Positions 52,688 through 54,168 of a stretch of 64,000 bases of DNA are shown piece after piece; position 1 is the first letter of the stretch, and every line of letters starts with the position of its first letter. The DNA comes from Cohnella candidum. GTDB taxonomy: Bacteria; Bacillota; Bacilli; Paenibacillales; Paenibacillaceae. The notes beneath the pieces were generated by a model. It had not been told where the DNA came from. It ran no database searches and saw nothing but the letters and a program-made list of their open reading frames with translations. The position numbers were made by a program, and so were the translations under genes. Location of the stretch: positions 1,957,001 to 2,021,000 of the forward strand of contig NZ_CP033433.1 in NCBI RefSeq assembly GCF_003713065.1, written 5' to 3'.

Positions 52688-52743
52688 GTTCACGAGCGCG
52701 GGGGATAGTCGGAGGGGCCGACCGAATAACTCAGGGCCACCGA

Positions 52744-53276
52744 AGACGGTCTCACCGTCTTACGGAGCAGGATTGGTTACTTTGGCGATACCTAAGACGG
52801 TCTCACCGTCTTGCGGAGCGGATTTGGTTACTTTGGCGCTACCGAAGACGGTCTCACCGTCTTGCGGAGCTAATTTGGTTACTTTGGCGGTACCTAAGAC
52901 GGTCTCACCGTCTTACGAAACCGATTTGGTTACTTTGTCGTTACCTAAGACGTTCTCACCATCTTGCGGACGGATTTGGTTACTTTGCCGTTACCGAAGA
53001 CGGTGTCACCGTCTTGCGGAGCAGATTTGGTTACTTTGTCGTTACCTAAGACGTTCTCACTATCTTGCGGAGCGGATTGGATTACTTTGCCGTTACCAAA
53101 GACGGTCTCACCGTCTTGCGGAGCAGATTTGGTTACTTTGGCGTTACCGAAGACGGTCTCACCGTCTTGCGGAGCAGATTTGGTTACTTTGGCGTTACCG
53201 AAGACGGTCTCACCGTCTTGCGGAACGGATTTGGTTACTTTGGCGGTACCGAAGACGGTCTAGACGTCTTGCGGCT
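52744..53276. repeat. Array of eleven 51-bp direct repeats, each with a 17-bp palindrome
   Basis: Units start at 52744, 52795, 52846, 52897, 52948, 52998, 53049, 53100, 53151, 53202 and 53253; the last is partial. Spacing is 51 bp except unit 5 (50 bp, one base lost after position 22 of the unit). Each unit opens with AGACGGTCTCACCGTCT, a perfect 7-bp dyad around CTC, then TTGCGGAGC, GATTTGGTTACTTTGG and a variable CGNTACCNA end. Units 8 and 9 are identical; units 5 and 7 have damaged dyads. The array fills the space between the SpoVAA promoter side and the 3' end of the gene at 53299. Confidence 0.95.
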
Positions 53277-53298
53277 TGAACGTTTGGTGCGAGAAAGT

Positions 53299-53961
53299 TT
53301 AAAACATGAAGTTTCGAGCCTTAGGGGTCAATTCATAAAAGTGAAAGCGTTCAGTACCTCTTCCCAATGGCTGCAGCAATCCTTTTCCCACCATCATTCG
53401 AATGATTTTTCTGCCGGCGTCCTTTTGAAAATTCGTACAGAGCGTGACGTCATCCATATTGATGGGTCGATTTAAATACAACGCAAAGCGAATAATTTCC
53501 CTTTCATAGATGCTTAAGTCTCGATAAGCCTCCCCGGGCAGGGCGGAGTGGATGCCGATGAGTTCGTAGAGGGTGCGGCGGCAGTAGTCGGGCCTCTTGT
53601 CCAATTGGTCCCAGGTGAATGGGATGTAGGTGATTTTGCGCGCGGCCATCGTGCAGATGCGGACTTGTTCGAAGTCGAAGCGGTCGCGGGTGATTTTCTC
53701 GGCGTGAGGAACATAACCGAGGCTCTCCACCCCCCAGCGTAACGGCGGATTGAAGAAGTCGATGTAGATCCTGACGCCTGTGTTGCTGATCAACTCGTAT
53801 TCCATCACCAGTCCTTCGGGAGACGGCAGAACAGGTCGAAGCGCTTCGCAATACAATTTCTTTTCTCCCGTTTTGTCCCTACGCAGCATCTCCAATCTCT
53901 GGCCCGTCGCCGTTCGGATCTGTTCCTCCCACAACCCATCAAACTCCTTTTCGTACGCCAA
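53299..53961 (-). CDS. Putative PD-(D/E)XK-like domain with C-terminal winged helix
   Basis: A 220-aa protein whose family I did not recognise. The middle (about 54-125) runs MEYEL, RIYIDFFNPP, VESLGYVPHAEK, then RDRFDFEQVRI and ITYIPFTWDQL. That order of an Asp (68), Glu (79), a Gly-x3-His turn (His86) and a closing beta strand matches small endonuclease-fold (Vsr/DUF559-like) domains, though no xK follows Glu79. The C-terminal 60 residues look like a winged helix (DDVTLCTNFQKDAGRKIIRMMV). The TTG 53961 start has GGAGGGG upstream. The gene ends about 20 bp from the 51-bp repeat array. Nuclease or regulator activity is inference. Confidence 0.6.
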   Translation of the reverse strand: MAYEKEFDGLWEEQIRTATGQRLEMLRRDKTGEKKLYCEALRPVLPSPEGLVMEYELISNTGVRIYIDFFNPPLRWGVESLGYVPHAEKITRDRFDFEQVRICTMAARKITYIPFTWDQLDKRPDYCRRTLYELIGIHSALPGEAYRDLSIYEREIIRFALYLNRPINMDDVTLCTNFQKDAGRKIIRMMVGKGLLQPLGRGTERFHFYELTPKARNFMF

Positions 53962-53991
53962 TGAACACACCCCTCCATCGGCCGGAAATGC

Positions 53992-54027
53992 AAAAACGCC
54001 GCTCACCCCATCCGGGGCAAACGGCGT
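53992..54027 (-). terminator. Terminator after sigF
   Basis: ACGCCG (54027-54022) and CGGCGT (54001-53996) on the minus strand enclose a CCCC/GGGG inner stem and are followed by TTTTTG. Confidence 0.8.
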
Positions 54028-54112
54028 ATGCTTTACGCGGCACTATAATTGGCTTTAAAACTATCAGAAAATTCACAGCACGTCTAGAGGTGAGTCAAAC
54101 AGGTCAGTGGTG

Positions 54113-54148
54113 TGCGATGTTGGGTGCGACGTTGGGTGCGACGTTGGG
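54113..54148. repeat. Three tandem 12-bp repeats downstream of sigF
   Basis: TGCGATGTTGGG (54113-54124) is followed by two exact copies of TGCGACGTTGGG (54125-54148). They lie in the 140-bp stretch between the sigF stop and its terminator. No further unit is present. Confidence 0.85.
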
Positions 54149-54168
54149 TGCATTACGCGGACAAGTGT

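Follow-up and report, generated by a model that had tools for sequence, protein, structure and literature searches.

A nuclease-like gene family of Cohnella and its candidate cognate 51-bp palindromic tandem arrays

Described repeat systems and the Cohnella candidum locus

The 52-nt tandem repeats described in Firmicutes by Subirana and Messeguer are non-coding arrays whose units of 51-53 nt have a constant length and unrelated sequences, occur as several families per genome and hold short signals together with their reverse inside one unit (PMC8161180). They are abundant in Paenibacillus, and in the parts of the publications considered here (PMC8161180, PMC8625621, PMC6749651) their function and partner are not known; those parts of PMC8161180 report no partner gene and state that evidence is lacking for any Cas-like protein that would act on the repeats. 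In the open-licence literature, no work linking 52-nt repeats to a partner gene was found. The present analysis concerns a 64,000-nt stretch of the Cohnella candidum genome (GCF_003713065.1, contig NZ_CP033433.1, positions 1,957,001 to 2,021,000), hereafter called the window, in which a tandem array of eleven 51-bp units lies just past the stop of a gene coding for a protein with a nuclease-like region and a winged helix. The initial annotation of this locus knew of no described system with such a layout. This holds for the partner gene and not for the arrays, which fit the 52-nt repeats: their unit is likewise constant (51 bp in the window, 50-53 bp in all 65 arrays located within 200 bp 3' of close homologues) and several unrelated families lie outside genes in one genome, as seen in sampled stretches partly chosen around arrays. 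Unlike the published repeats, the window array and most arrays found with close homologues have a candidate cognate gene beside them. The arrays alone are thus an already known class and the new part is the cognate gene, i.e. the gene-array pair, by which the 52-nt repeats gain a candidate partner protein from a family with an array beside most of its Cohnella members.

Other described systems resemble the locus in part. In the RAYT/REP systems, a gene is accompanied by cognate palindromes alongside it and by many further copies elsewhere in the same genome (PMC2817692). The likeness extends to dispersal, since the cognate palindrome is dispersed in the same genome for two of the three close members, the third (L023) being the exception. 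RAYT genes are flanked by two palindromes in inverted orientation. The differences are that the palindromes here are mostly found on the 3' side only (an array of the same kind occurs on either side of 5 of the 78 genes, in the same orientation and not inverted), that they form a one-sided, head-to-tail array of fixed period beside a PD-(D/E)XK-like protein, and that no Transposase_17 (IS200/IS605-type) is present among the 24 Pfam families listed for 44 members. In type III toxin-antitoxin systems, the repeats are usually located 5' of the toxin gene, and their RNA inhibits the toxin, an endoribonuclease. The ToxIN and CptIN systems of this type combine a nuclease with a neighbouring row of structured repeats (PMC8860590). 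The arrays described here depart from them by lying 3' in 65 of 88 close homologues and only 5' in 7, by reaching about 20 copies and by occurring at further places where the gene is absent; the Pfam, NCBIfam and PADLOC scans gave no hint, at the sequence level, of a ToxN fold. CRISPR arrays share with them the dyad repeats at intervals of about 32 bp, but the intervals are near-identical within an array here, the arrays occur at many loci and no Cas gene was found in the scans made.

The array of the window (52739..53274, without assigned strand) was the single one detected there by Tandem Repeats Finder (TRF), with a period of 51 and 10.5 copies. The dyads start at 52743, 52794, 52845, 52896, 52947, 52997, 53048, 53099, 53150, 53201 and 53252, and both results confirm the eleven head-to-tail 51-bp units of the initial annotation, with one qualification: nine of the ten dyad-to-dyad steps measure 51 bp and one 50 bp. 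The dyad itself had been given as AGACGGT-CTC-ACCGTCT; its presence was verified and its form corrected to AAGACGG-N5-CCGTCTT, in which the two 7-base arms are conserved and the 5-base centre is variable. The 32-bp spacers are near-identical to one another, and n dyads alternate with n-1 spacers. Both arms are intact (zero mismatches) in 8 of the 11 dyads, the damaged ones being those at 52947, 53048 and 53252. When the source genome (5.29 Mb, one contig) was searched for the dyad with 3 mismatches allowed in 19 bases, 37 matches per strand were obtained and none for the reversed control, and no array was detected in 156 kb of shuffled sequence; the array is not a product of chance. About 25 bp (a distance first estimated at about 20 bp) separate the edge of the array from the stop of the gene, which lies on the minus strand and occupies 53299..54006 as a 235-aa frame opened by GTG. 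The likely start is the TTG at 53961, which restores the 220 aa first announced and is plausible because several homologues align from about residue 16. A coding repeat was considered, 51 bp being 17 codons and the plus-strand frames being open, and was rejected: 50- and 52-bp arrays occur, one step in the window is of 50 bp and TAA is present within the minus-strand units. A 168-aa open frame (52773-53279, plus strand) spans the array as a by-product of the 17-codon unit. A known RNA was rejected as well, Rfam giving a single sub-threshold match, to an animal microRNA family.

Association of the gene family with 3' arrays

A family match was present in 51 of the 59 genomes of the family-level group, and 34 of the 37 genomes of the genus hold 84 matches at E 1e-25 or better. 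These 84 and four matches from other genera constitute the set of 88 close homologues; the flanks of all 88 were examined, and array distances were counted from the point where the protein match stops. An array of 50-53 bp starting at most 200 bp 3' was found in 65 of the 88 (64 by a TRF-based count), with a period of 51 in 42 cases, 52 in 21, 50 in one and 53 in one, and the search of periods 30-80 over the same distance revealed nothing outside 50-53 bp. The copy number per array ranges from 2 to about 20, with a median of 7.7. In 1.16 Mb of Cohnella bulk sequence, 910 genes were predicted, and 15 of them are followed by an array of this kind within 200 bp; the comparison of 65/88 with 15/910 gives a Fisher value of 3e-67, computed on rows that are relatives and not independent. 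A 3' array was also seen in 5 of 8 distant paralogues of the genus, which had been chosen from the family matches regardless of arrays. There is hardly any doubt in our view that the gene-array association is real. As judged from the sequences, family members carry directly 3' a tandem array with a unit of 51-52 bp whatever its sequence, and the unit is particular to a gene or small clade. The tie suspected at first is supported, some homologues being however without array.

The fate of the arrays along the protein family was followed on a quick protein tree of 155 rows, 78 of which were labelled as having a 51-bp array on the 3' side. The label clusters on the tree, with 18 changes versus a shuffled mean of 50.6 and none of 500 shuffles as low. 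Furthermore, unit similarity declines as the proteins diverge (Mantel rho -0.168, 0 of 999 permutations): units are alike in 7 of 8 pairs at distances below 0.3, in 22% at 0.3-0.8 and in 1-3% beyond 1.2, suggesting a quick turnover of the unit sequence. A lone upstream operator, as expected for autoregulation, was rejected, the best upstream match being no better than with swapped genes, barring five genes with a second array.

Outside Cohnella, four Paenibacillus genomes were selected for a tandem array in their sigF region (51-52 bp in three of them, 61 bp in one). These genomes gave 19 family matches, of which 5 are followed by a 51-52-bp array within about 100 bp. One of the sigF-region arrays that had led to this selection, L109 of P. 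piscarius, shares its dyad by eye with the array beside the gene L332 of that genome, and no other result of this work comes nearer to a blind test. In other families of Bacilli, three arrays of 51-52 bp were present in 400 kb from genomes with the protein versus none in 371 kb from genomes without it, these counts being small. None of 11 distant paralogues from other genera has an array. Relatives in other genera show other 3' periods, namely 42 bp (L310), 61 bp (L303), 35 bp (L320) and 40 bp (L325).

Dispersed arrays and the proposed gene-satellite cassette

The source genome contains ten family matches, three of them close members. In this genome, the window dyad forms arrays (at least two units about 51 bp apart) at ten other places, at 1.40, 2.08, 2.86, 2.91, 2.94, 3.92, 3.95, 4.30, 4.59 and 4.72 Mb, and is also found as single copies; according to the coordinates of the family matches, these ten arrays are all more than a few kb away from any family gene. 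The locus had been thought to be a self-contained cassette, an idea that is abandoned because the same dyad builds gene-free arrays at these ten places. Exact copies of the dyad amount to 31 in the source genome and to 0-2 in each of 36 genus mates (one or two in 11 of them). In the same way, the dyad of the paralogue L024 is dispersed as arrays at nine further places of the source genome; it counts 38 copies there, 47 in genome G003, one each in G010 and G027, and none in 33 others, and G003 carries a gene, L254, which bears the L024 dyad. The two dispersed dyads thus reach high copy numbers only where the genome also has the matching gene. Homologues without arrays and arrays elsewhere without the gene, which the initial annotation held to speak against its pairing of the two, were both encountered; in our reading, they reflect cognate arrays to which dispersed copies are added.

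The gene gaps holding dispersed arrays were 7 convergent, 11 tandem and 1 divergent, as defined by a crude picker of open reading frames. With respect to their neighbours, 6 dispersed arrays are sense and 5 antisense (four of these assignments rest on near-equal scores), and a sense orientation is not supported by this count. A detector of repeated dyads at any distance, applied to 464 kb of the source genome in stretches partly chosen around known arrays, returned periods of 50-52 and their doubles, and few others. The dominance of this period varies with the sample. Among arrays longer than 30 bp in period, those of 51-52 bp represent 12 of 12 in source-genome stretches selected in part for their arrays, 11 of 13 in nine genus mates and 4 of 8 in a less selected sample of twenty further genus mates; in Paenibacillus sigF regions, where periods from 27 bp upwards were counted, they represent 4 of 18. 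By eye, arrays of the window family abut other families of about 51 bp (e.g. dyads around TAACCGG, AAGTAAA and TCGTCGC), and such mosaic arrays were seen at L010, L011, L013, L014, L017, L020 and L021. A 50-bp array with the perfect dyad TAGCGCG-N5-CGCGCTA and no identified gene is present at 3.934 Mb of the source genome (L061 14252-14529).

We propose that gene and array could form a gene-satellite cassette with a mobile satellite, acting at the DNA level and working like RAYT/REP without being homologous to it; its probability is in our opinion about 0.45. In its favour are the 3' association with its replicate in Paenibacillus, the clustering on the protein tree, the link between unit and protein similarity, the dispersal that follows the matching gene, the second array on the 5' side of five genes and the lower rate of change in dyad arms than in spacers. 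The winged helix would recognise the cognate dyad, the nuclease would cut at or between dyads, and the cut pieces would be repaired or re-inserted to give head-to-tail copies and to seed arrays elsewhere. The seeded arrays would often land 3' of genes, where little harm is done, and the 51-bp ruler would be set by the geometry of neighbouring bound complexes. In a wider form, to which we give slightly less credit, the system would be a new class of selfish element, in which a PD-(D/E)XK and winged-helix protein generates a 51-bp palindromic satellite of its own, keeps it up and disperses it, acts as the ruler and is the missing agent behind the 52-nt repeats of Paenibacillaceae, perhaps also of Bacillus. 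If true, a restriction-type nuclease would be the basis of a gene-plus-satellite element, which would explain the presence in one bacterium of many arrays of one period but many sequences. The array period may follow the protein clade, and the relatives with 35-, 40-, 42- and 61-bp arrays would then be variants with other rulers.

Several observations weigh against the proposed cassette. No array starts within 200 bp 3' of 23 of the 88 close homologues (in 4 it starts at 200-320 bp, in 7 it is on the 5' side only, 2 show two units by eye and 10 have none), none of the five distant paralogues of the source genome has an array, and a 49-54-bp array was beside none of the 29 best matches from other genera of Bacilli. 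The dyad copies of the third close paralogue, L023, are confined to its own array, several array families of the source genome are without identified gene, and none of the 23 arrays in the 1.16 Mb of Cohnella bulk lies within 500 bp of a family gene. In 43 of 78 units, the best dyad is no better than in dinucleotide shuffles at 0.05; it beats them in the 35 others (Fisher 6e-23, the units not being independent). Finally, the nuclease profile matches in the family are weak and mostly due to distant members. As most sampled arrays are orphans, a second maker of arrays is possible, and other machinery could make the 51-bp satellites, beside which the gene family would merely tend to insert. The occurrence of 52-nt repeats in Bacillus species and the homologues from other families without nearby arrays would be compatible with such hitch-hiking. 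However, the placement is one-sided, 3' rather than 5', unit similarity correlates with protein similarity and the dispersal of dyads is confined to genomes with a matching gene, so that this explanation appears very improbable to us.

The protein was analysed by profile searches. The window protein itself has zero matches in Pfam, PADLOC and NCBIfam. The combination of a PD-(D/E)XK-like domain and a winged helix, guessed at first, finds tentative support in weak matches of its relatives: at E 0.1 or better, DUF559 was matched by 7 and MTES_1575 by 6 of 44 relatives, and others match the MarR/TrmB winged helices of Pfam. When ten members were scanned singly, only L028 exceeded a curated cut-off (DUF559). 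The PD-(D/E)XK-like region covers residues 55-140 in the 235-aa numbering (53587..53844, minus strand). E71, D83, H101, R107 and C142 are invariant across the 44 relatives and E69 and E94 are kept at 90% or more, suggesting that E71, D83, H101, R107, E69 and E94 may belong to a nuclease active site. The winged-helix region covers residues 160-225 (53332..53529, minus strand); the profile of the 44 relatives matches winged helices in Pfam and among the sequences of the Protein Data Bank (PDB), and no nuclease among the latter. A known defence protein was rejected, PADLOC and NCBIfam giving nothing for the window protein and the matches of relatives being weak and mixed. The Csa3/CARF profile matches of relatives are also weak and fall among the winged-helix matches.

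A winged helix, conserved dyads and a constant spacing of 51-52 bp, near five helical turns, could also be those of a binding platform on which proteins polymerise at sites phased by 51 bp, with a role in regulation or in the structure of the nucleoid, the adjacent gene encoding the binder and the nuclease activity being minor. This is close to a proposal of Subirana and Messeguer (PMC8161180, section 4.1). Nevertheless, the nuclease-like residues are retained, the unit sequence turns over fast between relatives, several families per genome are needless for a structural role and the lone dyad upstream of genes that would mark autoregulation was not found. A binding platform is for these reasons an unlikely explanation.

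The conservation of the units was examined in 36 arrays with clear dyads, where the change per site is 0.028 in the arms versus 0.137 in the spacers. The arm changes that keep a G.U pair are 48 when read on the sense strand versus 29 on the antisense strand, the corresponding values for spacers being 243 and 261 (p 0.027), and this excess leans weakly to a structured sense strand. In gene orientation, the loops of the 35 significant dyads are A-rich (87 A of 156 letters). No terminator-like hairpin was detected between stop and array in 74 cases, and one was detected after the array in 1 of 74. The G.U excess, the A-rich loops and the lack of a hairpin between stop and array, like the reported transcription of the 52-nt repeats of B. 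coagulans (PMC8161180), are favourable to an RNA partnership, the main rival of the DNA-level cassette, in which the array would be transcribed as the 3' untranslated region of the gene and the protein would bind or cut its hairpin RNA. This RNA would serve as antitoxin, guide or self-limiting device, in a manner that recalls type III toxin-antitoxin systems. Yet the G.U effect is small and the units within an array are not independent, compensating double changes are few (3 in 2667 pair cells, all paired), the dispersed arrays have a mixed orientation to their neighbours and the nuclease profiles matched are those of DNA-enzyme families, except RAP. The array also lies 3' of the gene, contrary to the usual type III order. 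Taken as a whole, this evidence leaves the RNA partnership rather doubtful.

Insertion site and features upstream of the gene

Gene and array are located between the spoVA and spoIIA-sigF blocks, which we take to be adjacent in B. subtilis. The sigF gene matches that of C. pontilimi at 97%, in agreement with Cohnella. Their status of insert (gene and array) was established by comparison with 17 named Cohnella sigF regions, in 16 of which the sigF-spoVAA interval contains neither a gene homologue nor an array. Sporulation-time control, once suggested with the array as a decoy or multi-operator, received no supporting evidence, and the gene is missing from the spot in the same 16 of 17. The remaining region, that of C. 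pontilimi (L085), has both a gene homologue and an array at the same spot. Its unit is different, and its gene contains at least one in-frame stop and falls on the tree beside family members other than the window gene; one origin of the two inserts is therefore not claimed. In-frame stops are present in L085 10999-11697 and in several other family copies, a sign of decay or turnover. In L102 (6767-7414), a family member occupies the C-terminal portion of a longer open frame (about 690 aa).

Directly upstream of the window gene, a hairpin followed by a T run (53991..54030, minus strand) is similar to the terminator that follows sigF in L086, where the site is empty, and presumably has the same role. 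Terminator-like hairpins were found within 180 nt upstream of 33 of 78 family genes versus 3 of 78 in the shuffled control. Farther upstream, a 12-bp tandem repeat of 3.3 copies (54112..54151, minus strand) is of uncertain membership in the system. Upstream of the 78 family genes, 20 tandem arrays were counted in all, with short periods of 16-52 bp that mostly fall between 16 and 45 bp.
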